A stretch of DNA of 64,000 bases from Candidatus Gastranaerophilales bacterium. GTDB lineage: Bacteria > Cyanobacteriota > Vampirovibrionia > Gastranaerophilales > Gastranaerophilaceae. The translations under genes were made by a program, and so were the position numbers. Below, one piece after another: positions 17,500 to 33,315 of this stretch; position 1 is the stretch's first letter, and the number at the start of each line of letters is the position of its first letter. The notes under the pieces are model-generated. The model did no database searches, was not told the origin of the DNA, and was given only the letters and a program-made list of their open reading frames with translations. Where the stretch lies: contig CALURX010000003.1 in NCBI GenBank assembly GCA_944323265.1, forward strand, positions 1 to 64,000, read 5' to 3'.

Positions 17500-19830
17500 T
17501 TATTTTCCACGAATATTAAAATCTCCTAACCATTCAAGAGATAAAAAACAACTCGGTAAATAACTGTCATTTGAGATTATAATATCAATATCTTCATTTT
17601 TTGATATTATCGGTAATAAAAATGTTCCGTTTGATATTGTTATTTTCCCTAAAGTTGCCTTATCTGTACCACAAATCATTCCAGTAAATTCAAACTGTGA
17701 AGCTATTTGAGTCGTATATTTAGGTATAACATTAATCTTAAAATACCCTGTTTCTGTATAGCTTAAATTAATATCTCGCAGCATTAAGATGCCTTCTTTT
17801 ACTTTTGTAGTACCATTTGTAAGTTGTTCTCTATAATACATTTTTGGTAGTTCCCAAGTAGATTCAAAAGTGTTGCCGACAATTACATTGTCATACTCTC
17901 CATCAATATCAAATCTTTGAGGGAAATTACTTGTAGTTGTATAATCAAGTGGGACTCCATCTTCATTTAGTATTGTAATCTCATTATCGGGCATATAGGG
18001 TAGATTTATTATAGTTCTTCCTACACTATGAATAGGATTTTCAAAATACAATTTTCTGTCTAAGTAACAAAGAAAATCTAAATTTGTTTCTTTGTTCTTA
18101 GGAGAAAAATTCATTTTTTCCAAGTAAATTCCATCTGAATATTGCATATACAGGTACATAAAGTTTTCTTTAAAATCAACATTTAAAACTTTTGTATTCT
18201 TAAAATTCCATTTGCTCCAAGCCGATTGAGCTTTTTGTTCAGAACTATAGTAATAGTTGTAAACATAAATACTGTCTGTTTCACTTTTTGAAAGGAAGCA
18301 AGCAATATTGTTTGCCGTACTTCCTGCTATCTTATACATTCCGTTTGGTAAATAACTGGGTACTTGTTCCGTTATATCTCTTGCGTTTATTGTATATGTA
18401 GATGTAATAAAAATCTCCATAACTCTTGAGTAATTACCATTTTCAAATAAGAAAAAACCTGTTCCACCTGCATTGATTGGTTTACAATATTTTGAGCAAG
18501 GATATTCCATTGTTAAATCACAACCTACGGTGCTATTAGAGAATACATCACCGCCTTTTATTGAAAATTCCGAAGTATTAGAAAAAAGCAGCAATTCTTC
18601 ATTAAAAGGCAAGCTATGAGTTAAACTTACCATCTTTGAGTTAGAACCAACATCAATGGGGTCAGTTTCTAAATCCGTAAGTGTAGTTTTCTTAAAAAAT
18701 GAGAATATATCTTGTGTATCAGAATATATTGATTTATCTGCCGATAAAAAAGCTAATCTGCCTTTATGAGTAAATATATCCTGTATCGTATTTCCAATAA
18801 ATGAAGGTGTGGGAGCAGAATCTTCATCTCCGGATTTGCGTTCTGTCCAATCTATCTCTTGAAAGCTAAAAGTTCCGTTTGCTTGTCTTATCAATGCGTG
18901 TGGCATTGTTGCCGCATTGAATTTGTATTGTATATTGGGGGAGCAGCACTCTTGCCAAGCTCCTGTTCCAAATTCACTACCGTCAGCAGTTGAAAATTGG
19001 ACATAATAATCGTCAGAAATATTTACATCTTCACCTATTATTTTCATAATAAAACCATTTGGTGCTACTAGAGGTAAATCATTCAAACTGTTTGCTTCTT
19101 TGTAAAAACAATATAAATCACAATCCGAATTACTATCTGATGTTTGTATTGTAAAATCACCACCAATTCTTTTGGTTAAAAGAATTGTAGAGTTTTGTAA
19201 TTGTATATTCCAATTTGTAGTACCTAATTGAGCTACCATTCCGTCATATAATGCTTTTGCGATAGTTGTAGTTTTGCAATCCGCTCTATCAGTAGCAGAT
19301 GTAGTTTTACTGGCTACTTGAGTGCCATTGACCGTAATTTTATAATCAGTTGCATAATCTCCCTGTTTTATGAAAATTAGTGCACTTGCTGGATAAGGAT
19401 TGGTAAATGTTTCACTTGATAATTGAGCCGTTACAGTCCTATTCAAGATAAAAGTATAATCTGCAATTGTTGTTGCAACTAGGTCTTTTAGCGGATTTAA
19501 TGTTGTTATATAATCAATTGAACTGGATTTGTCATAAGTAACTGTTTTGGCATTTCCTTCTAAATCAAAAACTTTTATTCCTTCTGTTGAATCCCCTGTG
19601 ATTATAACTCCGTATTCTTCATCTTCTTTAATAATGGTATGTATCAAAGGGTGATTTGTGAGAGTATCCATTAATCTTGCAATATATTCTGTCGGAGGTC
19701 TGTCTTTTAAACCGACAGAGGGGGAAGGGAAATAATTAACTAAACTCTTTGCTTGATTAGGGTACATGAGCTTATCAACCTGTTGTGATACTCCGCCAAT
19801 AAAATTTGCAATTGTATCTCTAACCAACAT
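17500..19830 (-). CDS. Tail tubular protein B (T7 gp12-like nozzle)
   Basis: 776 residues, about the length of T7 gp12 (794). The N-terminus DTIANFIGGVSQQ followed by MYPNQAKSLVNYFPS is the conserved gp12 opening. FTHKGRLAFLS in the middle and the repeated beta-rich segments are typical. It forms the nozzle of the short tail and contacts fibres. Its start overlaps the tail tubular A stop by one base. Confidence 0.93.
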   Translation of the reverse strand: MLVRDTIANFIGGVSQQVDKLMYPNQAKSLVNYFPSPSVGLKDRPPTEYIARLMDTLTNHPLIHTIIKEDEEYGVIITGDSTEGIKVFDLEGNAKTVTYDKSSSIDYITTLNPLKDLVATTIADYTFILNRTVTAQLSSETFTNPYPASALIFIKQGDYATDYKITVNGTQVASKTTSATDRADCKTTTIAKALYDGMVAQLGTTNWNIQLQNSTILLTKRIGGDFTIQTSDSNSDCDLYCFYKEANSLNDLPLVAPNGFIMKIIGEDVNISDDYYVQFSTADGSEFGTGAWQECCSPNIQYKFNAATMPHALIRQANGTFSFQEIDWTERKSGDEDSAPTPSFIGNTIQDIFTHKGRLAFLSADKSIYSDTQDIFSFFKKTTLTDLETDPIDVGSNSKMVSLTHSLPFNEELLLFSNTSEFSIKGGDVFSNSTVGCDLTMEYPCSKYCKPINAGGTGFFLFENGNYSRVMEIFITSTYTINARDITEQVPSYLPNGMYKIAGSTANNIACFLSKSETDSIYVYNYYYSSEQKAQSAWSKWNFKNTKVLNVDFKENFMYLYMQYSDGIYLEKMNFSPKNKETNLDFLCYLDRKLYFENPIHSVGRTIINLPYMPDNEITILNEDGVPLDYTTTSNFPQRFDIDGEYDNVIVGNTFESTWELPKMYYREQLTNGTTKVKEGILMLRDINLSYTETGYFKINVIPKYTTQIASQFEFTGMICGTDKATLGKITISNGTFLLPIISKNEDIDIIISNDSYLPSCFLSLEWLGDFNIRGK

Positions 19831-20393
19831 TAAATAAAGCTCCTTATATTACCGTTATACATATCCGGTATCATTGTGTAATCGCCAATTTCTAATTCGT
19901 GTTGCTCAAGTGCAATTCTTGCTTCCGATAAATCTTCTTGAGTATATGCACACGCTTTTTCCGAGCCTAATTCTCTTTTTACAAATTTGTATGCAGCAGA
20001 CATTTTTGCATACTCTCTCGCTACCTCTGGAAGTTCATCAAATTCCAAACAAAAGACAACAGAAGCTTTCAATGTTTTATCAATCTTGAATGTATGCTCT
20101 TGTTTGTCATATAATTTGCCATTCCTAACTACATAACGATTTTTGTAATAAGAAGGCATATTTATCATAATCAGATTTGAGGGTACTATAATTTCATTGT
20201 CTGTATTCGGTACTAAGGGATAATTGTCTTCTGAATTAAAATCCCAGCCTTGAAGCTGGATTCTTCTAATTTCATCATTCAAAATCTTTTCTGCCGATAT
20301 TGTGAAATAGCTTTTTGTTCCTTCTAAAGAATTAAGCGGAGATTGACCGATACACGAAAGCATTGTGTTTATTGCTTCTAATTTTGTTGTCAT
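19830..20393 (-). CDS. Tail tubular protein A (T7 gp11-like adaptor)
   Basis: 187 residues. AINTMLSCIGQSPLNSLEG, followed by WDFNSEDNYPLVPN and a helix with YAKMSAAYKFVKRELG, is the gp11 signature. It forms the dodecameric ring that joins portal and nozzle. A terminator-like hairpin lies just upstream, separating it from the capsid gene as Tphi does in T7. Confidence 0.93.
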   Translation of the reverse strand: MTTKLEAINTMLSCIGQSPLNSLEGTKSYFTISAEKILNDEIRRIQLQGWDFNSEDNYPLVPNTDNEIIVPSNLIMINMPSYYKNRYVVRNGKLYDKQEHTFKIDKTLKASVVFCLEFDELPEVAREYAKMSAAYKFVKRELGSEKACAYTQEDLSEARIALEQHELEIGDYTMIPDMYNGNIRSFI

Positions 20394-20420
20394 TGTTGCT
20401 CCTATTAATTGGTTGATACC

Positions 20421-20449
20421 TCATCCCAGCCCTCTCCAAAAGGAGAGGG
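20421..20449 (-). terminator. Hairpin after the major capsid gene, partial terminator
   Basis: A perfect 8-bp stem ccctctcc/ggagaggg (20430-20437 with 20442-20449) lies 16 bp after the capsid stop. It is followed on the minus strand by CTGGGATGAGG instead of a U tract. It occupies the position of the T7 Tphi terminator. The element GGAGAGGGCnGGGnTGAGG also occurs at 69-91 in the chromosome, so it may be a dispersed repeat used as an attenuator. Confidence 0.5.
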
Positions 20450-20464
20450 AGGAGAGAAAAGTAG

Positions 20465-21421
20465 TTATGCAGCTTCTGCTGAAATTTCAACGGCACATTC
20501 TGGTCTCAAAATGCCATGTCCTTGTAAAATTCTTGCAGTAAGCAAGTGAGATAATCTTTCTAAAATCCATTTTGGTTCAACTATCAATCCTTGTCTTGAT
20601 ACAGTACCAATTGCTTGTCGATTCATTACAAGAGCTGCCGTATTTGTAAAATCTCCGTAATAAACATTATTTGGTTTCGTTGTATCAATGGATTGAGTAA
20701 TATTAGTTTGTGGTAAATGGTTTGTTTTAATTATTTGAATACCATTTAATTTGCCAGTTGTACCTTCTGAATAAGAGCCTGTTCCTATATCGTGATTTTT
20801 AATATCTTCATATTGAGCAAGCAAAGAATATTGAAGCGGTCTGACAAATGCGTATCTGTCTGTTTCATCAACATTCTTTTCATCAAGTTCAACTCCAGCA
20901 GTATAGATAGCTGCTGCAAGCAAAGAAGCATCCGTTTTAGCATTAGCCCCGGCTTTAATTACAGAACCGCCTGCTCTGCCTTGAACAGTACCGCCAGCTC
21001 TTGCAGCCAATACCCCAACTTGAAGAAGTTGCTTATCTTCTGTATTAGCTAACGCTTTAGCCATTTCACTAACAATTTCTGCTCTATCATCATATTCTTG
21101 TAGTTTCACATCTAAGTCGTGAATAAGGATATCTGATACCAAGAAAGGGTCAAGATTAATTGTAATCTCGTTGTGAGCAATTGATTGATTTCCGAGCAAA
21201 GAATCGCCAACTGTAACATACTTAGCAGAGGTCGTACCAAGTACAGGAAATGTCGCCGATTTACCTTTTGTAATCGTTTTATGTCTTACATAATTTTTCA
21301 TTACTCGCTTTGCATCAAATGCGGTTAAAAGTTCCGGGATAAACTGGTCTCTAAAAAGAGCCATAACATCACCAGATAGGTTCGCTTGCCCTAATCTGGT
21401 AAAATTAAATTCGTCTGTCAT
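20465..21421 (-). CDS. Major capsid protein (T7 gp10-like)
   Basis: 318 residues of HK97 fold. It starts FNFTRLGQANLSGD and continues with GKSATFPVLGTTSAKYVTVGD, LVSDILIHDLDVKLQEYDDR and a C-terminal VEPKWILERLSHLLTARILQG. All are characteristic of podovirus gp10-like capsids, slightly shorter than T7 gp10A (345). There is no obvious slippery frameshift for a minor B form at the 3' end. Confidence 0.95.
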   Translation of the reverse strand: MTDEFNFTRLGQANLSGDVMALFRDQFIPELLTAFDAKRVMKNYVRHKTITKGKSATFPVLGTTSAKYVTVGDSLLGNQSIAHNEITINLDPFLVSDILIHDLDVKLQEYDDRAEIVSEMAKALANTEDKQLLQVGVLAARAGGTVQGRAGGSVIKAGANAKTDASLLAAAIYTAGVELDEKNVDETDRYAFVRPLQYSLLAQYEDIKNHDIGTGSYSEGTTGKLNGIQIIKTNHLPQTNITQSIDTTKPNNVYYGDFTNTAALVMNRQAIGTVSRQGLIVEPKWILERLSHLLTARILQGHGILRPECAVEISAEAA

Positions 21422-21437
21422 TAATTAAAAAATCTCC

Positions 21438-22106
21438 TTAAATTCCTAAATCAATACCAGCTTCTCTTGAAGCAGTAACTTTCTTTTGAACATCAGCTCT
21501 ATATGCTTCATCTACCCTGTATTTTGGGTTTGATATAGCTTCAAACATTTCTGCTTGAGAGCGAAAAATATCCTTAGCTGGTTTTCCACCTTCCCCTTGT
21601 GTGTAATTTGGGGTAATTCCTTCTTTTTCTTCCATGCGATTTTTTAAATCCTTTAATATAATTTGAATAACACTTTTATCTGTTATTCCGTTGATTGATT
21701 TGATTTCAGCTTCTGATAAATTTTCAGAAGCCCATTTGATAACATTATCAAAAGTTTCTCTTCCACCTATACATTCGGCTATTTCATTCTTTTCTTGTTC
21801 AGCTTTTGCAATCTGTCCTTCAATAAAGTTATCAACAAGCTCTCCTGTAATACCTACCTCTGCAAGTTGTTTTCTTGTAGATTCTGATATTTTCCCTGTT
21901 GCAATAAACTCCTTTTGTAGTTCTGCATAGTCAAATCCTTTTGTCTGCAAAACCTCTTGAGCCTGTTCCTGTGTTTCTGCAACTATTTCTGTTTTTTCTG
22001 TTTCATTCTCTTGCTCTGTTTCCACAGTTTCAGGTTCATTAGAAGTTTGAGTAACTTCGGTTTGTTCATCCAAAGTTTCTGGGTTAATATTTTGTTCTTC
22101 TGACAT
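21438..22106 (-). CDS. Capsid scaffolding protein (T7 gp9-like)
   Basis: 222 residues. The acidic N-terminus is very rich in Glu and Thr, with a helical middle and the basic C-terminal tail KVTASREAGIDLGI. Position between portal and capsid and the charge profile are diagnostic for the gp9 scaffold, which guides prohead assembly and leaves during maturation. Confidence 0.88.
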   Translation of the reverse strand: MSEEQNINPETLDEQTEVTQTSNEPETVETEQENETEKTEIVAETQEQAQEVLQTKGFDYAELQKEFIATGKISESTRKQLAEVGITGELVDNFIEGQIAKAEQEKNEIAECIGGRETFDNVIKWASENLSEAEIKSINGITDKSVIQIILKDLKNRMEEKEGITPNYTQGEGGKPAKDIFRSQAEMFEAISNPKYRVDEAYRADVQKKVTASREAGIDLGI

Positions 22107-22114
22107 ATTTACCC

Positions 22115-22375
22115 CTAATAGTTTCTAACCACTTGAATATTTGGCATAGCAGAATAAATTTTCTTTTGCTTTATATTTTCTGCTTCTTTAGAATTTGCAA
22201 GTAATGTTTTCATAAGTTTTAACTTCTTTTCGGGAGTTTTAGCTCCTCTTATATCATCTTCGGTAGGAGTTGCTTTTTCTTCCTCTTTTTCATCTTCTGT
22301 TTTTACTGACTCTTGCGTTCCTTCTACCTTTACTTCAGTTTCTTCAACCGTTTTCTCTTCTTTAGTTTTTGCCAT
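22115..22375 (-). CDS. Small highly charged protein between portal and scaffold
   Basis: 86 residues, more than half Glu, Lys and Thr. The first half is acidic and the second half basic (TPEKKLKLMKTLL), ending MPNIQVVRNY. No family recognised. T7 has no separate gene here, though related podoviruses carry small charged proteins at this position. It may assist the scaffold. Spacing to both neighbours is about 8 bp, so it is co-translated in the operon. Confidence 0.65.
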   Translation of the reverse strand: MAKTKEEKTVEETEVKVEGTQESVKTEDEKEEEKATPTEDDIRGAKTPEKKLKLMKTLLANSKEAENIKQKKIYSAMPNIQVVRNY

Positions 22376-22383
22376 AAATCTCC

Positions 22384-24009
22384 TTATACAATATTGTCAT
22401 TTTGTGAATTTTCTTGTTGTTTTAAAAGCATATCTCCATATTTATTAACAGCATTTGGAGCAACTGTTTTCAGCAGTTCCTGTTGTTGCATAGCTTGAGC
22501 CTGTTCTTGTCTTTCTTCTTCCGAGTAGAACATACCCTCAATGTCAAGGTTAAGAGAAGCAGCGACATCATTTGCAACTTTTTCAACTTTGCCACCTAAC
22601 TGTTGTAAAGCCGGAGCAATCTTTGTCATAATATCCAAAAATGTTACAAGTTTATTCAAATCAGAGCTTCTGCCTAATGCTTCAAGCCCTGTTGTAACCG
22701 TCAGTTTAACATTCTTATCTCTAATCAAATCGGGTAGTGCATTTTTCTTTTCTTTCTTTAGATGAAAGAATGTAATTTTGACATAAGCTCTTTGAAAATC
22801 CTTACACATAATTGAATAATGGTTGCCGAGTGCTTCTTCCAAATCTTGAGCCATTTGCCTGATTTCTTCTGCCGTTACACGCTCTGCATCTCTTTGGATT
22901 GCAGCTTTCATAACAAAAATACGATTTAATCTTCTCTCTATTTTATCCGCTTCTGCCTGTGCTACTTGTAAATCATAGTATTTGTTTGCCTGTAAAGGCT
23001 GGACATCTTCAACTCTTCCTAATGCAAAACCGCCATTCTTTGCTTCTGCCAAGTGCTTAATCTTTGTTAATCCGTTTGGATTTACAAGCATGACCAGCTT
23101 ACTTCCAGCTAGTGAAGCCTGTTTTATTGCAAGTGAAAGTGTATCAAGGTATGAAATATCTCCAATATATTCTTCAACTAAACCTCTTCCATAACTCTCT
23201 CCATCAATCCTCACATACCTTAATGCAATAAAAGGACACACATCAATCGGGTATTTCCCCCTTGAAGCTGGCAATTCTACTCCCTCACACTCTTGATAAA
23301 TCTCCCAATGTTTTTGTTTTCTTCTAAAAACTGTATAAAGTGTAAGTTCTTCCTCTTCAAGTCTTTTTGCCATCTCTTTATCTTTGGCTTTTCTTTCTAA
23401 AACTTTCATCATAACAAGTTCTTGTACTTCTTCTGGAAGAGAATACAAGCTGATTGTTTCTTCTGTGATTGCTTTGATAACATTTCCACAGTAATCACGC
23501 TTCACGCAAAATCTGTCCAATGGGTAATATTTTAATCCCTCTTTTGGATCGTGTACGAGAAAAACATTTCCAGCTATATACAAATGTTTAAGAGCTTCTC
23601 CAGCACAAACCCTATCTGCTAATTGTTCTTGATAATCAAGCAACATCTTTTCAATTCTTGATAATCCCTTATTTAATTCCGTCTGATATTGACTTGATGT
23701 AATTCCTGCAAGTTCCGCCTGTTGTTTGATTACTAAATCATCCATTGAAAATTTGAAAAAAGTTTGATTTGGCGGTAACATTGTGAGAATTACTTTTGAA
23801 GCTAAATTATTTATGCCATCAGCTCCTACCGATTGGTTTGGAGTTTCAATTTGTTTGATAGCATTTTGCTTATTCATATTGTCGACTATTAGTGATGGAA
23901 TTGTATATTTTGCAGCCAGTTTTGCTTTTTCTAAATATGGCTGTCGGTCTTGTTTCATACTTTCGTATTCGGAAGCAAGAGTTCGCCTTTGGGGTAATTC
24001 TTTCTCCAT
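22384..24009 (-). CDS. Portal protein (T7 gp8-like head-tail connector)
   Basis: 541 residues, near T7 gp8 (536). Recognisable parts are YTIPSLIVDN, the NLASKVILTMLPPNQTFFKF segment, FIALRYVRIDGESYGRGLVE, and the C-terminal crown with MQQQELLK. It forms the dodecameric portal, where terminase docks for packaging and gp11 binds afterwards. Confidence 0.95.
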   Translation of the reverse strand: MEKELPQRRTLASEYESMKQDRQPYLEKAKLAAKYTIPSLIVDNMNKQNAIKQIETPNQSVGADGINNLASKVILTMLPPNQTFFKFSMDDLVIKQQAELAGITSSQYQTELNKGLSRIEKMLLDYQEQLADRVCAGEALKHLYIAGNVFLVHDPKEGLKYYPLDRFCVKRDYCGNVIKAITEETISLYSLPEEVQELVMMKVLERKAKDKEMAKRLEEEELTLYTVFRRKQKHWEIYQECEGVELPASRGKYPIDVCPFIALRYVRIDGESYGRGLVEEYIGDISYLDTLSLAIKQASLAGSKLVMLVNPNGLTKIKHLAEAKNGGFALGRVEDVQPLQANKYYDLQVAQAEADKIERRLNRIFVMKAAIQRDAERVTAEEIRQMAQDLEEALGNHYSIMCKDFQRAYVKITFFHLKKEKKNALPDLIRDKNVKLTVTTGLEALGRSSDLNKLVTFLDIMTKIAPALQQLGGKVEKVANDVAASLNLDIEGMFYSEEERQEQAQAMQQQELLKTVAPNAVNKYGDMLLKQQENSQNDNIV

Positions 24010-24017
24010 CTAATCTC

Positions 24018-24353
24018 CTATACAGGTATATTTAATCCTGTTTGGTTTGTATCACCTGTGTTAATCCCTGTAGTACCAGTGTTTGTTTTGTTGAGAGGTA
24101 TTCTTAAAGAGTTGATTGCTCTTTTTTCTGATTTGTTTTCTCTTAATTGACTTGCCGTTTTCTCAACAGATTTTGGTACTTTTGTATTCATATTATTAAT
24201 GGCATTTACTGTTTCTGCCTGTTGCCTTTGAGCAGCTTGAGCTTGCTGTTGTTGAGCTTTTGCCAACTTATTAGAACTTGCAGCACTAATTGCAGCACTA
24301 GCAGCCATAGTTCCAACCGCAACAACGGCTGGTATAATTGCTGGTGGACACAT
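24018..24353 (-). CDS. gp7.3-like small virion protein
   Basis: 111 residues. The N-terminus is a hydrophobic Ala-rich segment (PAIIPAVVAVGTMAASAAIS), the middle is Gln/Ala-rich and the C-terminus is SLRIPLNKTNTG.. ending GLNIPV. T7 gp7.3 likewise ends in KSLSVARSSGGGINI and precedes the portal gene, where it is needed for tail assembly and host adsorption. I take this as its counterpart on position and on the shared tail motif. Confidence 0.7.
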   Translation of the reverse strand: MCPPAIIPAVVAVGTMAASAAISAASSNKLAKAQQQQAQAAQRQQAETVNAINNMNTKVPKSVEKTASQLRENKSEKRAINSLRIPLNKTNTGTTGINTGDTNQTGLNIPV

Positions 24354-24388
24354 ATTTTACACTCCTATTATTTACTACATACAAAAAC

Positions 24389-24416
24389 AACCACCAATAT
24401 TATTAAAATGGTGGTT
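24389..24416. terminator. Hairpin between gp7.3-like and upstream small gene
   Basis: Perfect 8-bp stem aaccacca/tggtggtt (24389-24396 with 24409-24416) with a 12-nt AT loop. On the minus strand it is followed by GTTTTTGTATG, a weak U tract. It could separate the 66-residue gene's transcript from the late operon. Confidence 0.45.
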
Positions 24417-24459
24417 ATGATTCTTTATATAAATTCATGTAAATTTTATAAATTATAAA

Positions 24460-24660
24460 TTATAAATCTTTTTTGTTATCTAATACATTTTCTTCATTAT
24501 ATTGTTTTTCTATTTTTAATTTATCTATGACTTGTTGTTGTCCTATTAATATACCTAGTTCAAATTCTGTTTTATATGTTCTGGGCAATATATCTTTAAA
24601 ATCTCTTTCTAAACATTTAATTAGTTTATCTGATATTGGTGGATATGTTTTTTCATTCAT
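24460..24660 (-). CDS. Hypothetical protein (66 aa) at the head of the late arm
   Basis: The ATG is preceded by AGAGGTAG. The sequence (KLIKCLERDFKDILPRTYKTEFELGILIGQQQVIDKLKIE) is mostly helical. The stretch ELGILIGQQQVIDKL is typical of small phage-encoded proteins of unknown role. It is transcribed divergently from the recombinase at 24764 and is the first leftward gene after the central module, so its promoter may also start late transcription. Confidence 0.6.
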   Translation of the reverse strand: MNEKTYPPISDKLIKCLERDFKDILPRTYKTEFELGILIGQQQVIDKLKIEKQYNEENVLDNKKDL

Positions 24661-24676
24661 TTTATACTACCTCTTT

Positions 24677-24731
24677 CCATATAGGGGTCATTGAAAATTT
24701 TGAAGGAAATTTCTCATTGACCTGTATATGG
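24677..24731. promoter_or_regulatory. Divergent control region with imperfect inverted repeat
   Basis: Between the 66-residue gene and the recombinase, ccatataggggtcattga on the left is mirrored by tcattgacctgtatatgg on the right, with few mismatches. A further gtatagaa at 24737-24744 matches the arm motif of the inverted sites at 25480-25668. This suggests an operator shared by both genes and possible autoregulation by the recombinase. Confidence 0.45.
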
Positions 24732-24763
24732 AATATGTATAGAAAAGGAAGGAGAAAATTACA

Positions 24764-25303
24764 ATGAACAAAGTTGAACCTATTAGAAACAAAAATGATT
24801 TAAAAAGGGTAGAGCGGATTTTGGCTAAAAATCCAAGAGATTTGTTAATGTTCACAATCGGAACAAATTGTGGATTAAGAATCTCTGATATTTTAGCACT
24901 TAATGTCGGTGATGTTAGAGGGAAAAACTATATTCAGCTCACGGAAAAGAAAACAGGTAAGTTTAAAAAGTTTCCTGTAAATGCTAAGTTAAAACCCATG
25001 ATTGAAGAATTTACGAAGGGCAGAAAATCTGATGAACCATTATTTATGACAAAATTCCAAAACAGGTTAGGGCGAGTAACTGCGTATTACACAATAAGAC
25101 AGGCTTGTAATGAAGCTCATCTTGAAGAAAAATTTGGAACACATACGCTAAGAAAGACTTTTGGGTATCATCACTACAAGAAATATAAAGATGTAGCCAT
25201 GCTTCAGAAAATTTTTAATCATTCCAGTCCTGCGGTTACACTAACATATATTGGTATCGAACAAGAAGAAATTGATGAGAGTTATAACAATTTTATTTTA
25301 TAG
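24764..25303 (+). CDS. Short tyrosine recombinase, probable DNA invertase
   Basis: 179 residues, essentially only a catalytic domain. It has CGLRISDILAL (catalytic Arg, about residue 43), a beta-hairpin Lys region TEKKTGKFKKF, HTLRKTFGYHH (His-x-x-Arg), FNHSS and the nucleophile in TYIGI. The strong GGAAGGAG RBS supports the start. It lacks the N-terminal arm-binding and core-binding domains of an integrative enzyme. It is not next to an att site but directly upstream of two inverted 30-bp sites and the glycan operon. That context fits a local inversion switch. Small recombinases of this size do occur in phages without known function, so the role is inferred. Confidence 0.88.
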   Translation: MNKVEPIRNKNDLKRVERILAKNPRDLLMFTIGTNCGLRISDILALNVGDVRGKNYIQLTEKKTGKFKKFPVNAKLKPMIEEFTKGRKSDEPLFMTKFQNRLGRVTAYYTIRQACNEAHLEEKFGTHTLRKTFGYHHYKKYKDVAMLQKIFNHSSPAVTLTYIGIEQEEIDESYNNFIL

Positions 25304-25479
25304 TTCAAAGCGTCTTGTAATGGTGGTTTGAATACATAATTTAAGAATACAGAATTAACAAACTGTACAAAAAAATTATAAATTCATTCTATCATGAAAA
25401 TTGACAAAAAATTTTAATTTATAAATATTTTTAATTAAAAATCTAAAACCCAATAATATTAATAAAAACTCCTAAAATG

Positions 25480-25509
25480 TTCTTTACAATATTAACATTG
25501 TGTATAGAA
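25480..25509 (+). other. Left inversion site (candidate crossover site IRL)
   Basis: 30-bp element with 8-bp ends ttctttac and gtatagaa around a 14-bp centre. Its 19-bp right part, attaacattgtgtatagaa, is perfectly repeated in inverted orientation at 25639-25657. Overall 27 of 30 positions match the reverse complement of 25639-25668. With 11-bp arms the 8-bp spacer reads attaacat here and its reverse complement in the right site. Confidence 0.75.
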
Positions 25510-25638
25510 TTTTAATTCCAATTTGTATAGAACCATTATAAAACAAACAAAAATTAAATGTTTTTCTATACAAAAATTATGTATAAAATCGTAAAATAAT
25601 TGTTACTTAAAATCGTCAAATGCCCTACTCCTATTGTG
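25510..25638. promoter_or_regulatory. Putative invertible promoter segment
   Basis: 129 bp of AT-rich DNA between two inverted recombinase-like sites, directly upstream of the glycan operon. On the minus strand it holds a perfect TATAAT (25535-25540) that currently points away from the operon, with a weak -35. On the plus strand there is a weaker TATAAA at 25582-25587. Two further half-sites (tttgtatagaa at 25522-25532 and ttctatacaaa at 25564-25574) could be accessory recombinase contacts. Which orientation is ON cannot be decided from sequence. Confidence 0.6.
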
Positions 25639-25668
25639 TTCTATACACAATGTTAATTGTGTATAGAA
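25639..25668 (-). other. Right inversion site (candidate crossover site IRR)
   Basis: Arms ttctatacaca and tgtgtatagaa are perfect mirror images, with spacer atgttaat between them (11-8-11), like XerC/D-type core sites. It is the inverted partner of 25480-25509. Its end lies 21 bp before the ATG of the first glycan gene. Alternatively it could be a dimeric operator. Confidence 0.75.
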
Positions 25669-25689
25669 AAGTATGAGAAAAGGTTTTTG

Positions 25690-26643
25690 ATGGGTACAAG
25701 ATTAATAAAAAATTATGATTTAGACTCTGATTTAGAGAAAATAGGAGTTACTTATAGTATAGAAGCTCCAAAAGTGTCAGTTATTGTACCAACATATAAC
25801 AATGAAGCTTATCTTGAAAAATGTCTTAAATCTCTTGTCCAACAAACTCTTAAAGAGATTGAGATTATTGTTGTTAATGACGGTTCAGAAGATAATACTG
25901 AAAGTATATTAAATATTTTCGCAAAACACGACTCAAGAATAAGAGTTATTTATCAACGACATCAAAAGCAAGGGGCTGCAAGAAACAGTGGAATGAAAGT
26001 TGCCAAAGGTGAATATATCGGCTTTGTTGATTCTGACGATTGGGTTGATTTAAATTATTACGAAAAACTTTATAAAGCTGCTAAAAAACATAATGTTGAT
26101 ATAGCATTGGCAACAAATGTAAGGATAGGAAACGGCAGAACTAAGAAGCGTTTAGAAATTACAGCAGAAGTAGTTGCTAATACTTTGCAATCAAAAATTG
26201 ATATTGGTAATCAAGCCAAAAATCCCTGTCCTACTAACAAGATTTATCGCCGTAGTATGTTAGAAAAAAACAATATTGTATGGTTAGAGGGATGTTACTG
26301 TGAAGATAAGTTATTTACTATTCAAGCTGTTTATTACGCTAATGCTATTGTCAGTGTTCCGGATATAAATTATTACTACTACAGGAATCCTAATTCTACG
26401 GTAAATTCAAGGTCACGAAAGCTTACTAATGACAAAAAGAGGGCAAAATTGGATGTCTTGAATTTCTTGAAGGAGAAAAATGCAAATATTAGGGATTGTG
26501 AGTTTTGGGCAATAACTGATGAAATAAAATTGTTAGGAATTAGTATATTTCAAAGAGAAGAAAGCTTAAATAGTTATCGGTACAAATTATTTGGATTAGA
26601 AGTTTTCCGAATAATTAATAAAGCTATAAAGGATAAAGTATGA
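25690..26643 (+). CDS. GT2 family glycosyltransferase
   Basis: 317 residues from the ATG at 25690, which has AGAAAAGG. The frame extends upstream through the inverted repeat, but that is unlikely to be translated. The GT-A fold is shown by SVIVPTYNNEAYLEKCLKSL, VNDGSEDNTESIL, GAARNSGMKVAKGEYIGFVDSDDWV (DxD) and a C-terminal EDKLFTIQA. It would add a sugar, probably to a lipid-linked acceptor at the inner membrane, as an early step of glycan assembly. It is first in a seven-gene operon, with a 4-bp overlap to the next gene. Confidence 0.92.
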   Translation: MGTRLIKNYDLDSDLEKIGVTYSIEAPKVSVIVPTYNNEAYLEKCLKSLVQQTLKEIEIIVVNDGSEDNTESILNIFAKHDSRIRVIYQRHQKQGAARNSGMKVAKGEYIGFVDSDDWVDLNYYEKLYKAAKKHNVDIALATNVRIGNGRTKKRLEITAEVVANTLQSKIDIGNQAKNPCPTNKIYRRSMLEKNNIVWLEGCYCEDKLFTIQAVYYANAIVSVPDINYYYYRNPNSTVNSRSRKLTNDKKRAKLDVLNFLKEKNANIRDCEFWAITDEIKLLGISIFQREESLNSYRYKLFGLEVFRIINKAIKDKV

Positions 26644-27863
26644 GTTTAAAAAAGGTTGTACGAAATTTTATAGCAAAGTATCAAGAAAAGTTTTGTTTGA
26701 ATAATTATAAGAAAATCCTTACTCGTGTTCAAAACAAAAAAGGAAAAATCAGAGTTTTATTTTTGGTTAGAGAAAATCAAAAATGGTCTTATCAATCGTT
26801 GTATGAGTTATTAGAAAAAGATGAAAAGTTTGAGCCTTTGGTTGTTGTAAGCATATTAGAAATCACAAGAAAAGGAAAAGATAAAACTCGGCAAAATATA
26901 GATGAAACATATAGATTTTTCCGTTCTAGGGGTATGGAAACAGAGTTTGCTTATAAAAAGGGCAAATATGTTGATTTAAGAGAGTTTAATCCCGATATAA
27001 TATTTTACGACCAACCATGGGATTTACCTAAAATTCATCAGCCGCAAGAGGTTTCAAAGTTTGCATTAACTTGCTATACTCCATATGGAATTAGTTTGTT
27101 AAATTTAAAATCCGATTATACACAAGATTTTCACAGGTTACTATTTAGATATTATATTGATTGCAAAGCTAATAAGGAAAGATTTGAAAGCTACAGAAAA
27201 AATAATTCACATAATTGTGTAATTATTGGTTATCCTAAATTGGATAATTACTTTATTTCAACATCTACAAAAGTATGGAAGGATGAAAATAAAATTAAAG
27301 TTATTTATGCTCCTCATCATTCTTTTGATAAGAATGGGCTTAATTTAGCGACTTTTAAAGAAAATGGGAATTTGATACTGGAGCTAGCAAAAAATAATCC
27401 TCAAACCACGTGGGTATTCAGACCTCATCCTAGATTTAAACATCGAGTATTAAGAAATAATATTATGAATAAAAGTGAAGTTGAAAATTATTATAACGAG
27501 TGGAGAAAAATTGGAGTCATTTTTGAAGAAGGAGATTATTTAGGTTTATTTCAAAGTTCAGACTTGATGATAACGGATTGTAGTTCATTTTTAATGGAAT
27601 ATTTACCTACAAACAAACCTTTACTCCATCTTATTAATCAGAACGGTGTTAATAGTAATAAGCTAGGTAATGAAGTAGAAAAATTATTATATCAAGCTCG
27701 TACAAATGAGGAACTAATAACTCAATTCCAAAAATTAATCCATAATAAAGATGATGAAAAGAGGATGGAAAGAGAAGACTTTATTAACAAAACATTTTCT
27801 TTTAAAGATAGTAACAAAATTTATACAAATATTAATTACATTATAGGAGAGCAGCATGACTAA
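26640..27863 (+). CDS. CDP-glycerol:glycerophosphate transferase family protein (1)
   Basis: 407 residues. The C-terminal half carries the Glyphos_transf (TagB/TagF) motifs: IYAPHHSFD, WVFRPHPRFKHRV, then LMITDCSSFLMEYLPTNKPLLHL. The N-terminal half has a Rossmann-like domain (KIRVLFLVRENQKWSYQSL). Family members move polyol phosphate from a CDP donor onto a lipid-linked acceptor. With no TagD-type glycerol cytidylyltransferase here, the donor may be the CDP-polyol made by the next genes. It overlaps the following gene by 8 bp. Confidence 0.88.
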   Translation: MSLKKVVRNFIAKYQEKFCLNNYKKILTRVQNKKGKIRVLFLVRENQKWSYQSLYELLEKDEKFEPLVVVSILEITRKGKDKTRQNIDETYRFFRSRGMETEFAYKKGKYVDLREFNPDIIFYDQPWDLPKIHQPQEVSKFALTCYTPYGISLLNLKSDYTQDFHRLLFRYYIDCKANKERFESYRKNNSHNCVIIGYPKLDNYFISTSTKVWKDENKIKVIYAPHHSFDKNGLNLATFKENGNLILELAKNNPQTTWVFRPHPRFKHRVLRNNIMNKSEVENYYNEWRKIGVIFEEGDYLGLFQSSDLMITDCSSFLMEYLPTNKPLLHLINQNGVNSNKLGNEVEKLLYQARTNEELITQFQKLIHNKDDEKRMEREDFINKTFSFKDSNKIYTNINYIIGEQHD

Positions 27864-28554
27864 TATTGCACTAATAATAGCTGGAGGAGTTGGAGCTAGA
27901 ATGCAACAAGCAATTCCAAAACAATTTATGACTGTTTTTGATAAACCAATTATTGCATATACAATGGAATGTTTTGAAAAACATCCTGCAATTGATGTTA
28001 TTGCAGTGGTTTGTTTAGACGGGTGGGATAATGTTTTAGAAAGTTATGCTAAGCAGTACAATATTACAAAGTTAAAACACATCTTTCCTGCTGGTAGTGT
28101 AGGACAAGAATCAATAAAAAATGGAATTATGGGTTTAGCTGAAATTTATGATAAAGATTCTGTCGTACTGATACATGATGCTATTAGACCTAATTTATCT
28201 AAAGATATTATTTCTGATTGTTTAAGTTCAATTAAAACAAAAGGTTTTACTGTTGTTGTTGTACCTTGTAATGAAGCGATGATGGAAACTTATGATTTTG
28301 AAACATCTAACAAGGCATTTCCTCGTGATAATTTAAAACGAACTCAAACACCGCAAGGAGCAACTCTTGGACAGTTAGTGGAATTACATAATAAAGCGAA
28401 AGAATTAGGAATAACTGAATCTATTGCAACCTGCACATTAGTAACTGAAGTTGGTTGGAAAATTTATTTTTCAACAGGCTCTGGAAAAAATATAAAAATT
28501 ACAACACCAGAAGATATTGAGATTTTTAAAGCATTATTGAAACAAGAGGGATAA
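27856..28554 (+). CDS. IspD/TarI-like cytidylyltransferase
   Basis: 232 residues, full length for the family. The CTP-binding loop reads AGGVGARMQQAIPKQF. VLIHDAIRPNLS, VVPCNEAMMETYD and RTQTPQGATLGQL follow, and the C-terminus is KNIKITTPEDIEIFKALL. It activates a sugar-alcohol phosphate or related substrate with CTP. IspD makes CDP-methylerythritol and TarI makes CDP-ribitol. The neighbours (AraD-like epimerase, SDR enzyme, two polyol-phosphotransferases) favour a CDP-pentitol for surface polymer, not isoprenoid synthesis. Confidence 0.88.
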   Translation: MTNIALIIAGGVGARMQQAIPKQFMTVFDKPIIAYTMECFEKHPAIDVIAVVCLDGWDNVLESYAKQYNITKLKHIFPAGSVGQESIKNGIMGLAEIYDKDSVVLIHDAIRPNLSKDIISDCLSSIKTKGFTVVVVPCNEAMMETYDFETSNKAFPRDNLKRTQTPQGATLGQLVELHNKAKELGITESIATCTLVTEVGWKIYFSTGSGKNIKITTPEDIEIFKALLKQEG

Positions 28555-28557
28555 TTA

Positions 28558-29604
28558 ATGTATATAAATAATCAAAAATATAAACATGATATAAGTAAAA
28601 TCCTATGTCCTACTTTTAAAGCATTTAAAAATAAAATATTTTTTATAACAGGGGCAAGTGGTTTAATAGGTTCTTTTTTAATTGATACTTTAATGTATTT
28701 GAATATTGTAGAAGATTATAATATTAAAATTTATGCTACTTTTACTCATTTAAAGAGTTATGAAGACCGTTTTATTAGTTATATAAATAACAAATTATTA
28801 ATTCCTGTTGTACAAGATATTATAAATCCAATTCAAAATATTGATGATGTAGATTATATTATTCACACTGCAAGCAATACACATCCATTACTTTATGTAA
28901 CAAAACCAGTAGAAACAATAAATCTTAATATACAAGGAACTTTAAATGTTTTAAACTTAGCACAACAAACACAAGCAAAAATGATACACTTGTCAACACT
29001 TGAAGTTTACGGGGAAGATAAATCGGTTGATAGTTTTAAAGAAGATGATATTGGTTTAGTAAATTTCAATATAACCAGAGCTTGTTATCCAGAAAGTAAA
29101 AGATTAGCAGAAACATTGTGTCATAGTTATATACAAGAATATGGTACAAATATCAATATTGCTCGATTAGGTTATATTTATGGTGCTACTGTAAAATTAA
29201 ATAGTTCAAAAGCTGATGTTCAATTTTTAAATAAAGCTCTTAATAATGAAGCAATTGTACTAAAAAGTGATGGGCAACAAAAAAGGTCATATTGTTATGT
29301 TGCAGATGTTGTAAATGCACTATTAACGATTTTAATTAAAGGTAAAAATTCAGATGTTTTTAATATTGCAAGTGATTCTGGCAATGTTAAATTGTTGGAT
29401 TTTGCAAAAATATTAGCAGATATCGCTCATGTTGGTTTGGTATTTGAAGTTGAAGGTGAATTAGAAAAATTAGGCGGCTCAAAAGTCACTAATTCTACAT
29501 TAGATAATAAAAAATTAAAAAATATAGGTTGGAACTCTAAATTTTCATTAAATGAAGGAATTTTATCCACCTATAGTATTAAAAAGGAATTAATGAATGC
29601 TTGA
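28558..29604 (+). CDS. Extended SDR (NAD-dependent epimerase/dehydratase family)
   Basis: 348 residues. The nucleotide-binding TGASGLIGSFLID is at the N-terminus, the active-site region is STLEVYGED, then CYPESKRLAETLCHSY contains the Tyr-x-x-x-Lys pair, and KRSYCYVADVVNALL is typical of sugar-nucleotide SDRs. It could reduce or epimerise the activated pentose derivative made with the neighbouring cytidylyltransferase. The exact reaction cannot be read from sequence. The gene starts 3 bp after the previous stop and overlaps the next start by 8 bp. Confidence 0.85.
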   Translation: MYINNQKYKHDISKILCPTFKAFKNKIFFITGASGLIGSFLIDTLMYLNIVEDYNIKIYATFTHLKSYEDRFISYINNKLLIPVVQDIINPIQNIDDVDYIIHTASNTHPLLYVTKPVETINLNIQGTLNVLNLAQQTQAKMIHLSTLEVYGEDKSVDSFKEDDIGLVNFNITRACYPESKRLAETLCHSYIQEYGTNINIARLGYIYGATVKLNSSKADVQFLNKALNNEAIVLKSDGQQKRSYCYVADVVNALLTILIKGKNSDVFNIASDSGNVKLLDFAKILADIAHVGLVFEVEGELEKLGGSKVTNSTLDNKKLKNIGWNSKFSLNEGILSTYSIKKELMNA

Positions 29605-30280
29605 AGAAATAAAACAAGAAGTATTGGAAGCAAATTTAGCTTTGGTTAAATATAATTTAGTAATTTTTACTTGGGGGAATGTTTCAGCAAGAATAGAGAA
29701 AAATCTTGTTGTTATAAAACCTTCTGGAGTAAAATATGAAAAAATGACGGCTAAAGATATGGTAGTAGTTGATTTAGATGGAAACATTATAGAAGGTAAT
29801 TATAAACCTTCATCTGATACACCAACACACTTAGAAATTTATAAAGCATTTAGTAATATAAAAGGAATATGCCATACACATTCAAACTATGCTACATCTT
29901 TTGCTCAAGCTGGGTTAGGGATTGAATGTTTAGGAACAACACATGCTGATTATTTTTACGGTTCTATTCCTTGTACACGAAGTTTGAATAAAGAAGAAAT
30001 TGAAAGAGATTATGAAGCTAATACAGGGAAAGTGATTGTTGAAACATTTAAAAATCTTAATCCACTAAGCATTCCAAGCGTATTAGTTAAACAACATGGG
30101 GTATTTAGCTGGGGAACATCAGTAAAAGAAGCTGTACATAATGCAGTAGTCACCGAAGAAGTTGCAAAGATGAATTTTCAAACTTTACTTTTACCATCAT
30201 TAGAAATGAATTTTTCTCAAATGCTATTAGATAAGCATTATAACAGAAAGCACGGAGTGAATAGTTATTATGGGCAATAA
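29597..30280 (+). CDS. araD: L-ribulose-5-phosphate 4-epimerase (AraD-type)
   Basis: 227 residues, close to E. coli AraD (231). The alignment from memory is strong: TWGNVSARI, VIKPSGVKYEKMTAKDMVVV, KPSSDTPTHLEIYKAF, ICHTHSNYATSFAQ (zinc His pair), GTTHADYFYGSIPCTR and the C-terminal LLDKHYNRKHG. The enzyme interconverts L-ribulose 5-phosphate and D-xylulose 5-phosphate in a retro-aldol reaction. No arabinose catabolic genes are present, so here it probably draws pentulose phosphate from central metabolism into the glycan precursor. Carrying it on a phage is unusual. Confidence 0.9.
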   Translation: MLEEIKQEVLEANLALVKYNLVIFTWGNVSARIEKNLVVIKPSGVKYEKMTAKDMVVVDLDGNIIEGNYKPSSDTPTHLEIYKAFSNIKGICHTHSNYATSFAQAGLGIECLGTTHADYFYGSIPCTRSLNKEEIERDYEANTGKVIVETFKNLNPLSIPSVLVKQHGVFSWGTSVKEAVHNAVVTEEVAKMNFQTLLLPSLEMNFSQMLLDKHYNRKHGVNSYYGQ

Positions 30281-31517
30281 TTTAAGTTTGTTAGAAACAA
30301 TTTTTTCTGTAAAAAATGTAGCAAGAAGACATAAACAACTTTGTATTTTAGGTTTGAAACTAAAATTGAAAAGACCATATTACAACAAGCATTTGTATGA
30401 AAATTTGCCAATTAAACAAAATAAAATTATTCTTGAATCTTGTTTAGGTGCTTATAATTGTAATCCAAAATATATTGTAGAGGAAATTTTAAAAAGGGAT
30501 TTGCCTTATGATATTGTTTGGGCTGTTGATAAAAAAACAAATAAAGACAGTTTCCCAAAACAAGTAAGGATTATAGATAAAGGAAGCCGAGAATATTTTA
30601 AAGAATGTGCAACTGCAAAAATATGGATATCTAACGAAAGAATAAAACAATGCGTAAAAAAAGGATTATACAAAAGAGCAGAGCAGATTTATATTAATAC
30701 TTGGCACGGTTCTCTTGGTGGTAAAAAATGTACTATTGATAGAGGAACTTTGCCATTTGAAACATTAGAACCTTATATGATTGAAGCAGAACAAGTAGAT
30801 TATTTAATTAGCAATAGTGTATATGAAGATAGTTTTTTAAAGCGAATGTTTTGGGATAAAGGCACAGTTCTACGATTAGGACATGCAAGAAATGATATTT
30901 TTTTTAATACAGTATTACAACAGAAAGCTAAAGAAAAACTCTATTCTGTTTACAATATACCTACAACAAGTAAAATTGCCCTGTATGCTCCAACTTTTAG
31001 AGATGATAAGGATATGAACTGTTATACACTAGATTATGAAACATTAAAAAACAGTTTAATGAAAAAATACGGTGGGCATTGGATAATATTAGTAAGATTA
31101 CACCCTCAATTATTTAAAATTAAAGACCAGTTTATTGTTGACAAAAGTATTATAAATGTAACGGATTATCCAGATATGCAAGAATTATTAGTTCTCGCAG
31201 ATACATTAGTAACAGACTACTCTAGCTGCATTTTTGATTTTATGCTTACACGAAAACCTGCATTTATTTTTGCCACTGATATAGAAAAATACAATAATAC
31301 TAGAGGTCTATATGATTCATTGGAAACAACCCCTTTTTCTGTAGCAACTAATAATAGTGAACTAGCAACTATAATTACCAAATTTGATTATAAAAAATAT
31401 AGTAACAGAGTTGAAAAATTTTTGAAAGATAAAGGGTGTATGGAAGATGGACATGCTGCTAAAAAAGTTGTTGATTTGATTGAGGAAATTATAAAAAATG
31501 AATATCATACAAAATAA
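30270..31517 (+). CDS. CDP-glycerol:glycerophosphate transferase family protein (2)
   Basis: 415 residues, with the full family pattern: YNCNPKYIVEEILKR, YINTWHGSLGGKK, IALYAPTFRDD, WIILVRLHPQL and TLVTDYSSCIFDFMLTRKPAFIF. It is distinct from the copy at 26640 and closer to TagF-type polymerases. The first enzyme might prime the chain and this one extend it with polyol phosphate. It overlaps the araD stop by 11 bp and the ABC transporter start by 20 bp. Confidence 0.9.
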   Translation: MGNNLSLLETIFSVKNVARRHKQLCILGLKLKLKRPYYNKHLYENLPIKQNKIILESCLGAYNCNPKYIVEEILKRDLPYDIVWAVDKKTNKDSFPKQVRIIDKGSREYFKECATAKIWISNERIKQCVKKGLYKRAEQIYINTWHGSLGGKKCTIDRGTLPFETLEPYMIEAEQVDYLISNSVYEDSFLKRMFWDKGTVLRLGHARNDIFFNTVLQQKAKEKLYSVYNIPTTSKIALYAPTFRDDKDMNCYTLDYETLKNSLMKKYGGHWIILVRLHPQLFKIKDQFIVDKSIINVTDYPDMQELLVLADTLVTDYSSCIFDFMLTRKPAFIFATDIEKYNNTRGLYDSLETTPFSVATNNSELATIITKFDYKKYSNRVEKFLKDKGCMEDGHAAKKVVDLIEEIIKNEYHTK

Positions 31518-33261
31518 TGAAACTATAGATAATTATAAAAAAATATTTCCTTTTATAAAACCCTATTTTGGGCGTGCGTTTTTAGCTTTTAGCTTGGCAA
31601 TTCCTATCGGCTGTTTAGATGCGGTAATTGCACTTTCCCTAAAACCATATATGGATATTGTTATGGTTGAAAAGACAACACAATCTCCTTGGTATATTCC
31701 TATACTAATTATTGCGTTTACATCAATACAAGGGATTTTAAATTATGTTTCAACATATATGAATGATTGGGTAACATATAAGGTAACAAATGACTTAAAA
31801 AAAGCATTGTATGAGAAATTAATGCATAAAAGTTCGGTGTATTTTGATACAAAGACATCTGGTGATGCTCTGAAAAGATTTAACAATGATGCTGATACTG
31901 CCTGTAAAGGGTTGCTAGGTAGTATTAAACTAATTGTTTCAAGAGTTTTTTCTTCAATATCTTTAATTGGTGTTTTAATTTATAACTCGTGGCAACTATC
32001 AATTATTGCAATTTTTATGCTAGGTTTAGCTATTGTTCCTCTTACAAAAGTGAAAAATCGTATAAAATCAGTCACTAATAAGTCAGAATCAGAAAATGCA
32101 ACTGTAATAACTTCATATAATGAGGCTTATAATGGTAGTAAAGTTGTAAAAGCTTTTAATTTGTATGAAGTTCAGAAAGAAAAATTTGCACATCAACTCG
32201 AAAGGTTATTTAACCTAAAAATAGAAATAACACGCAAAACAGGTAGTATTTCTCCTATGATGCATATTATAGTATCTATTGGAATAGGATTAGCTATCGC
32301 ATATGGAAGTTATTTGATACAGAACGGTACAATTACAAGTGGAAATTTTGTATCTTTTGTTACTGCCTTGATTATGTTATATACCCCGATTAAAGGTCTT
32401 GGTACTAACATGAAAAGTATGCAAACTTCATTACTTGCATTAGAAAGAGTTGTAAAAAATCTTAGTGCAAAAGAATACATTGTAGATAAATCATCCTCTA
32501 TCGTTTTAACTGATTTTAAAAATGATATTATATTTGAAAATGTTTGTTTTGAATATAAAAAAGGAGTTCCTGTTCTAAAAAATATTAATTTTACAGTTAA
32601 TATAGGTGAAACATTAGCTCTTGTAGGAAATTCAGGTGGAGGCAAATCGACAATTGTAAATTTAATTCCCAGATTCTATAAAGTAAAGCAGGGTGCGATT
32701 AAAATTGATGGTATAAATATTGCAGATTACAAAATAAATTCTTTGCGTGACAATATTTCTATCGTGTTACAAGATAATTTTTTATTTGCAGGAACAATTC
32801 GAGAAAATATTTTAATGGGAAATTTGCAAGCTACAGAGGAGCAAGTGCGACTTGCGGTTCACAATGCTTGTCTTGATGAATTTGTATATAGCTTGGAGAA
32901 CGGTCTAGAAACATACATAGGAGAGCGTGGAGTATTATTATCGGGGGGGCAAAAACAAAGGATTGCTATAGCACGTGCATTTATTAAAAATGCCCCTATT
33001 GTTATCCTTGATGAAGCTACCTCTGCATTAGATAACAAATCAGAAGCAGTTGTACAACAAGCAATAGATAATTTAATGAAAGATAAAACTGTATTTGTAA
33101 TTGCACACCGATTGTCAACAATTCAGAACGCTGATAGAATAGCAGTTATAAATGAAGGTGAACTTGTGGAACTCGGTAAGCATGAAGAACTTATGCAAAT
33201 TGAAAACGGCAAGTATAAAGCTTTGTTTGAAATGCAGTTTAAAAAAGAAGAAATTGCTTAA
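31498..33261 (+). CDS. Type I ABC exporter (MsbA/PglK-like), probable glycan flippase
   Basis: 587 residues with a fused membrane and ATPase domain. About six membrane spans lie in residues 20-310. Walker A ALVGNSGGGKST is near 375, the signature is LSGGQKQRIAIARA, Walker B is IVILDEATSALD and the switch is IAHRLSTIQ. As the last gene of the glycan operon, it would move the lipid-linked product across the inner membrane, much as PglK or MsbA do. Classical wall teichoic acid export uses the two-gene TagGH system, so this cluster has its own style of export. Confidence 0.9.
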   Translation: MNIIQNNETIDNYKKIFPFIKPYFGRAFLAFSLAIPIGCLDAVIALSLKPYMDIVMVEKTTQSPWYIPILIIAFTSIQGILNYVSTYMNDWVTYKVTNDLKKALYEKLMHKSSVYFDTKTSGDALKRFNNDADTACKGLLGSIKLIVSRVFSSISLIGVLIYNSWQLSIIAIFMLGLAIVPLTKVKNRIKSVTNKSESENATVITSYNEAYNGSKVVKAFNLYEVQKEKFAHQLERLFNLKIEITRKTGSISPMMHIIVSIGIGLAIAYGSYLIQNGTITSGNFVSFVTALIMLYTPIKGLGTNMKSMQTSLLALERVVKNLSAKEYIVDKSSSIVLTDFKNDIIFENVCFEYKKGVPVLKNINFTVNIGETLALVGNSGGGKSTIVNLIPRFYKVKQGAIKIDGINIADYKINSLRDNISIVLQDNFLFAGTIRENILMGNLQATEEQVRLAVHNACLDEFVYSLENGLETYIGERGVLLSGGQKQRIAIARAFIKNAPIVILDEATSALDNKSEAVVQQAIDNLMKDKTVFVIAHRLSTIQNADRIAVINEGELVELGKHEELMQIENGKYKALFEMQFKKEEIA

Positions 33262-33264
33262 TAT

Positions 33265-33297
33265 AAAAAGAACTAACAATTAATGTTAGTTCTTTTT
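33265..33297. terminator. Bidirectional terminator between glycan operon and repressor
   Basis: Perfect 14-bp stem aaaaagaactaaca (33265-33278) with its complement (33284-33297) and a 5-nt loop. A tract on the left and T tract on the right allow termination from both sides of these convergent genes. Confidence 0.88.
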
Positions 33298-33315
33298 TGT
33301 TTCAATTTAATTAAA

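Follow-up and report, generated by a model that had tools for sequence, protein, structure and literature searches.

Related switches and phage-borne coat genes

FimB and FimE of E. coli, which act with fimS, are tyrosine recombinases of about 180-200 amino acids devoid of a core-binding domain, and they invert a short promoter segment. Invertible promoters, or "invertons", are located ahead of capsule loci of gut bacteria, e.g., Bacteroides (PMC10939037, PMC11892184, PMC8375218). The gtr operon of phage P22 and the Salmonella gtr loci are controlled by an OxyR/Dam epigenetic switch at GATC sites (Broadbent et al. 2010, PMC2909390). In the Rin shufflon of Bifidobacterium prophages, a phage-encoded tyrosine invertase serves the tail receptor-binding protein genes of the virion (PMC6109161). 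In the case of PinQ, encoded by the cryptic prophage Qin and acting on e14, a prophage inversion alters the host adsorption of other phages (PMC12529663).

The locus described here belongs to a window of 64 kb, at the start of contig C3 in a Candidatus Gastranaerophilales genome (2.24 Mb, 106 contigs). Very probably, it is an invertible-promoter switch complete in itself, which a temperate phage carries as cargo. Its comparison with the systems above leads to the following points: (i) as for P22 and Salmonella gtr, surface-glycan genes lie on a prophage, and the phase-varying lysogen population known for gtr is proposed here (PMC2909390); unlike gtr, the switch would be a DNA inversion by a dedicated recombinase and would govern a whole polymer operon instead of a three-gene modification set; (ii) as for invertons, short inverted sites surround a promoter (putative here), capsule or surface genes come next and a recombinase is nearby, whereas known invertons are described as bacterial and this one is found in temperate phages, in a different phylum (Gastranaerophilales); (iii) Rin acts on tail genes and is XerD-like with a core-binding domain, whereas here the putative promoter of host-surface genes is concerned and the protein starts at the catalytic domain; (iv) unlike those of the tail-fibre invertases Gin, Cin, Min and Rin, the segment is intergenic, ahead of glycan genes, and not within tail or receptor-binding genes; (v) PinQ differs as a serine recombinase acting on a 1,797-bp coding segment, in cryptic prophages, with a chimeric tail protein as product. 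No GATC, i.e., no site for gtr-type Dam/OxyR control, is found in 25304-25690 (sequence read directly). A limited literature search gave no description of host-surface genes preceded by an invertible promoter that a phage carries along with its own recombinase, nor any of phase variation in Gastranaerophilales or of invertons in Melainabacteria. Within that search, the combination is new; its parts are known.

Inverted sites and small tyrosine recombinase

The elements of the switch are the following:

24764..25303, + strand: small tyrosine recombinase, 179 aa, proposed invertase (PF00589, E=4.4e-23; phrog_216)
25480..25509, + strand: left recombination site, TTCTTTACAATA-TTAACA-TTGTGTATAGAA, 27/30 inverted match to the right site
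25510..25638, no strand: interior of the invertible segment, 129 bp, with homologous interiors in both orientations in relatives L032 and L033/L034
25535..25540, - strand: putative -10 box TATAAT of the invertible promoter, pointing at the recombinase in the window copy (OFF)
25639..25668, - strand: right recombination site, TTCTATACACAA-TGTTAA-TTGTGTATAGAA, perfect 12-bp dyad arms

Inverted repeats (27/30) thus surround a short segment upstream of an operon, as in an inverton. The preliminary description had reported these two 30-bp sites, and they stand alone in the window: among 212 overlapping 600-bp stretches only this one reaches 27, the next reaching 24. In 500 first-order Markov simulations of the region (within 450 bp), the best pair has 24/30 and none reaches 27/30. 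The 19 perfect bp reported within the sites (attaacattgtgtatagaa) are also present. The layout then proposed, i.e., 11-bp arms and 8-bp spacers (attaacat and its reverse complement), can be read in the sequence, but the invariant core deduced from 40 site pairs is of 6 bp with 12-bp arms. The cores are TTAACA (25492-25497) and TGTTAA (25651-25656). Additional half-site-like copies of TGTATAGAA are located at 24733-24744, ahead of the recombinase, and at 25521-25532 and 25564-25575, inside the segment; these are possible accessory or autoregulatory binding sites.

A small tyrosine recombinase does lie just upstream of the sites, as previously stated. The Pfam catalytic domain spans residues 23-165 of the 179, i.e., the protein starts at its catalytic domain, and longer recombinases match it from their catalytic part. 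Among its relatives, R39, K63, H127, H153 and Y162 are invariant and R130 is found in 14/15; the protein thus has the catalytic signature of tyrosine recombinases (R...K...H-x-x-R...H/W...Y). Sequence and fold matches in the PDB are XerC/XerA-like (moderate model, pLDDT 75). Like FimB/FimE, it is a short, catalytic-domain-only recombinase beside a short segment with a putative promoter; unlike them, it has other sites, is phage-borne and is associated with glycan and not fimbriae. With the FimB/FimE models NF007370 and NF007371 it scores 18.8 and 32.3 bits, far under the cut-offs of 221 and 222; it thus appears to work like FimB/FimE and is not classed with them.

The recombinase relatives come from Candidatus Gastranaerophilales genomes. 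Five more paralogues are found in the same genome, G000 (C21:20936, C17:5405, C69:385, C41:10443 and C3:77250). Those on C21 and C17 also have inverted-repeat-like sequence downstream; that on C41 is directly before a gene resembling pheS and has no obvious site pair. A paralogue (C21, C17, C69 or C41) could act in trans at the switch. In L044, R130 is replaced by cysteine, yet the two sites are identical (24/24); this recombinase has possibly been inactivated recently or is served in trans. A 27-bp inverted repeat (81%) is located at 24675-24733, between a divergent phage gene and the recombinase, and could be a divergent promoter pair or an operator.

Prophage setting

The phage features needed here are:

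514..47049 (ends included), no strand: T7-like prophage, attL 514-559, attR 47004-47049
33316..34014, - strand: phage repressor-like regulator adjoining the phage RNA polymerase (weak helix-turn-helix match)
35135..37591, + strand: T7-type phage RNA polymerase (PF00940, E=1.1e-109)
45808..46875, + strand: full-length prophage integrase beside attR (PF00589 with SAM-like N-terminal domain)

The prophage (46.5 kb) is bounded by a perfect 46-bp direct repeat (514-559 = 47004-47049), i.e., the 3' half of tRNA-Val, whose gene is at 47005-47080 on the minus strand. Between the att sites, a minus-strand late block contains terminase, portal, major head and tail genes, and a plus-strand early block contains the phage RNA polymerase, a T7-type primase-helicase, DNA polymerase A, a 5'-3' exonuclease and the full-length integrase. 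Both blocks are present in related prophages and virus contigs. The repressor-like protein has 31% identity with the protein at the equivalent position in the related phage G287.

Recombinase, switch and glycan operon occupy the junction of the two blocks, with the portal end of the late block on one side and, on the other, the early-block end that carries the repressor-like and RNA polymerase genes. No close copy of this cassette is found in the inspected stretches of the T7-like G287, G289, parts of G288 and the G223 C1 prophage; the cassette is thus cargo. The integrase at attR is kept in related phages. It leaves the small recombinase free for another job and suggests that the latter is not needed for prophage integration. 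This bears on another reading, in which recombinase and sites are the att/integration module of a small mobile element, with the glycan operon as its integrated cargo. The recombinase indeed belongs to the integrase superfamily, and the cassette moves between unrelated phages (see below). However, besides the prophage having an integrase of its own, the sites are inverted, 129 bp apart and on one side of the cargo instead of flanking it, and inversion, not excision, is seen in relatives; such a module is highly unlikely.

Since the phage encodes a T7-type RNA polymerase, the sites might also be promoters of that polymerase, giving phage-controlled transcription and no switch. The motif is repeated around the locus, and its TATAGAA end recalls the SP6 promoter. 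Nevertheless, the 64 kb have 7 TGTATAGAA copies, of which 6 are localized at 24.7-25.7 kb and none is ahead of other phage transcription units; moreover, sites of this kind are also found next to Mu-like phages and at loci without detected phage genes. The motif being confined to the switch locus, this explanation is rejected as next to impossible.

It must be noted that the whole late block (window 812-24353, int2 to portal) is inverted with respect to G287, G288, G289 and G223, where the early genes run in the same direction as the late ones. Another integrase-like gene, at 812-1597, is now beside attL. Inverted repeats joining the edges of the inverted block were sought and none was convincing. 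The stretch just left of attL (window 200-560) contains another, partial copy of the tRNA end (20 bp, 294-313) as well as repeated flanking sequence, which suggests that an element had already integrated at this tRNA before.

Glycan operon

The genes following the right site are:

25690..26643, + strand: glycosyltransferase family 2, first operon gene (PF00535, E=2.9e-42)
26640..27863, + strand: CDP-glycerol glycerophosphotransferase-like protein (PF04464)
27856..28554, + strand: IspD/ribitol-5-phosphate cytidylyltransferase-like protein (PF01128; under NCBIfam cut-offs)
28558..29604, + strand: NAD-dependent sugar epimerase/dehydratase (PF01370)
29597..30280, + strand: L-ribulose-5-phosphate 4-epimerase, AraD-like (NF006047 353.7 bits, cut-off 257; PF00596)
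30270..31517, + strand: TagF/TarF-like polyol-phosphate transferase (PF04464, E=2.8e-70; TarF model under cut-off)
31498..33261, + strand: MsbA-like ABC exporter (PF00664 and PF00005; MsbA model 518.6 bits, cut-off 602)

The first ATG (25690) is 21 bp past the right site, in agreement with the preliminary description. The operon (25690-33261) is located between attL and attR, i.e., these surface-glycan genes are phage-borne. Its gene content suggests that the product is a polyol-phosphate, teichoic-acid-like surface polymer.

The gene that directly follows the switch, compared in 37 relatives, is mostly a glycan gene: glycosyltransferase 2 (10), glycosyltransferase 1 (4), Bac_transf, a sugar transferase (3), Stealth (3) and DegT, an aminotransferase (2). 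Another recombinase occupies this position in 6, the rest being single cases. A second, diverged recombinase directly after the switch is found in L037, L042, L059, L066, L103 and L109, so the promoter may control a second recombinase in some loci. In L188, a second, diverged recombinase is directly before the first one.

Spacer covariation

Of the 68 loci with enough flank, 45 show an inverted pair scoring 20/24 or better in the 600 bp that follow the recombinase, vs. 1/80 for control stretches taken 1.5 kb further on. A strong site pair is missing at about a third of the related loci. In the 40 distinct pairs, the two sites (30 bp each) never differ in columns 13-18 (100% identity); across loci, only column 13 (T) is constant among these six, the other five having 27-77% identity. 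The 40 pairs contain 30 different central octamers. Identity over the central 8 positions is 95.6% within pairs vs. 53.9% between pairs, and the observed within-pair value is reached by 0/10,000 permutations. On the basis of these alignments, central 6 bp that match within a locus and differ between loci are the mark of a recombination spacer.

Among viral recombinase relatives at 40-54% identity, a site pair of at least 20/24 is found in 0/15; the association with sites is thus confined to the close clade. Recombinase relatives at 43-51% identity (L198-L262) are common in other phage contigs. L017-L031 are similar to these and have no inverted site pair in those checked, thus the role of the 43-51% relatives is probably different.

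Inversion in relatives

Three of the 80 genome loci, i.e., L032 (CALUQF010000038.1), L033 (CASFPS010000019.1) and L034 (CALUVP010000175.1), encode recombinases 91% identical to that of the window. Between L032 and L033/L034, the 12-kb flanks are 99.7-99.99% identical, and the interior is identical (129/129) only as reverse complement, vs. 48/129 in direct orientation. The window interior has the orientation of L033, opposite to that of L032. The upstream neighbours in L032-L034 are terminase, endolysin and tail chaperone genes; these loci are thus phage DNA too, of another type.

L049 and L050, both beside Mu-like phage genes, have three sites. The second segment (143 bp) is inverted between the two, and the half-sites TTTTGTTGAAG and TCAGTTGACT are swapped, as strand exchange in the spacer requires. 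A third, more diverged pair in opposite orientations is L040 vs. L084 (about 80% identity). The L049/L050 arrangement, in Mu-like prophages, is a version of the switch with three sites and two segments, which permits more than two states.

The earlier proposal that the sites invert the intervening DNA is thus supported by near-identical phage-borne loci with an inverted homologous segment (L032 vs. L033/L034; L049 vs. L050). Both orientations exist in relatives (L032/L033, L049/L050); the window copy is present in one assembly and one orientation, and from its relatives we infer that it flips too.

Opposite orientations in different assemblies could be assembly artefacts at a short inverted repeat, the segment being under the typical read-pair span and contigs often ending near the sites. 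However, the sites have in common a perfect arm of about 20 bp at most, and the k-mers used were probably longer (SPAdes, IDBA and k127, as judged from contig names), two of the three assemblies (L032/L033/L034) agree base for base, and the half-sites of L049/L050 are distinguishable and exchanged. The contig ends themselves are unevenly distributed, as mixed orientations would give: 14/80 contigs stop no more than 300 bp after the recombinase, vs. 4 before it (one-sided p=0.015), and some end inside a site (L102, L061). This excess is a hint that samples contain mixed orientations, although other explanations exist. An artefact is thus most improbable. The last 34 bases of L095 (AGATCGGAAGAGCACACGTCTGAACTCCAGTCAC) are a sequencing adapter remaining in the public assembly.

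The same observations bear on the possibility that the repeats are operators of a repressor or autoregulator, possibly the recombinase-like protein itself as a DNA-binding regulator, and that nothing is inverted. Two crossover sites do not call for the further TGTATAGAA copies upstream of the recombinase (24736) and inside the segment (25524, 25564), which would suit operators. On the other hand, inversions are observed in relatives, the active-site residues of the recombinase are kept, and the spacers are locus-specific and match within a pair, whereas repressor sites have no reason to covary. Operators alone are thus very unlikely here and, being contradicted by the inversions and the spacer covariation, are refuted for the family. 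The preliminary description named, as its refutation, a lack of the inverted orientation in related prophages together with site conservation explained by repressor binding; the relatives' inversions and the covariation speak against both parts.

Putative promoter and proposed mechanism

The TATAAT previously noticed in the 129-bp interval is present (25535-25540, minus strand) and directed away from the operon. In the window and in L032-L036, TATAmT (TATAAT/TATACT) is kept 31-32 bp from the same segment end. Of these, only L032 has the -10 box directed toward the operon; in L033, L034, L035, L036 and the window, it is directed away. No clear -35 box is recognisable in the segment, thus promoter activity is inferred from the -10 box; a promoter-consensus scan of the segment gave nothing above shuffles, with a consensus which may not be that of the host. 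The 21 bp between right site and ATG leave little room for another promoter. With the conserved -10 box in the segment and this short gap, the window copy looks OFF.

The following mechanism builds on features read from the DNA, i.e., sites, recombinase, prophage limits, inversion of homologous segments, spacer covariation and conserved -10 box. The 179-aa recombinase would bind the two 30-bp sites that follow its gene in inverted orientation, each with 12-bp arms and a 6-bp spacer, and flip the intervening 129-bp segment. This segment would carry an outward-reading promoter. In the L032-type orientation, the promoter would read over the right site into the glycan operon 21 bp off (ON); in the window orientation, it would read back toward the recombinase and the operon would be without promoter (OFF). 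In a lysogen population, some cells would then display the surface polymer encoded by the prophage and others would lack it. The lysogen coat would thereby change, and the likely benefit would be a variation of its phage receptors and antigens.

Spread among phage types and meaning

A second scan gave, besides L015, 13 virus contigs (L185-L197) with recombinase relatives at 65-84% identity. Several are Mu-like, with Portal_Mu and Phage_tail_S genes, Phage_tail_S being directly before the recombinase. Glycan operons are the cargo in L185, L195, L196 and L197. Large PMP-repeat/autotransporter-like proteins are found further downstream in L188 and L194, L190 being weak. In these three Mu-like or other phage contigs (L188, L190, L194), the PMP-repeat or passenger-repeat proteins near the recombinase have 1,158-1,594 aa; the large gene of L190 is on the opposite strand. 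Phage genes of such kind lie beside at least 15/80 genome loci; loci without detected phage neighbours may be chromosomal, or their phage may simply be unrecognised.

The cassette is thus carried by at least three unrelated types of temperate phages: T7-like (window), terminase/endolysin type (L032-L034) and Mu-like. The version in a T7-like prophage that had been put forward is confirmed as to the prophage, with its defined ends, and the place of recombinase and operon; it is not special to T7-like phages, since at least three phage types and loci without recognised phage genes have it.

Phages that alter the coat of their lysogens and bacteria that flip coat promoters were already known; here one phage combines coat genes with a machinery that would flip their promoter. 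Phages with little else in common have this cassette too. It is probable that unrelated temperate phages of Gastranaerophilales share a portable phase-variable cargo cassette, in which recombinase and invertible promoter are combined with a surface module that can be exchanged (glycan operons, or large PMP-repeat/autotransporter-like proteins in some Mu-like phages), and which diversifies the surface of their own lysogens and tunes superinfection and immune exposure. In this uncultured gut lineage, the lysogens of one clone are thus predicted to be mixed in phage sensitivity and antigenicity, by phage design.
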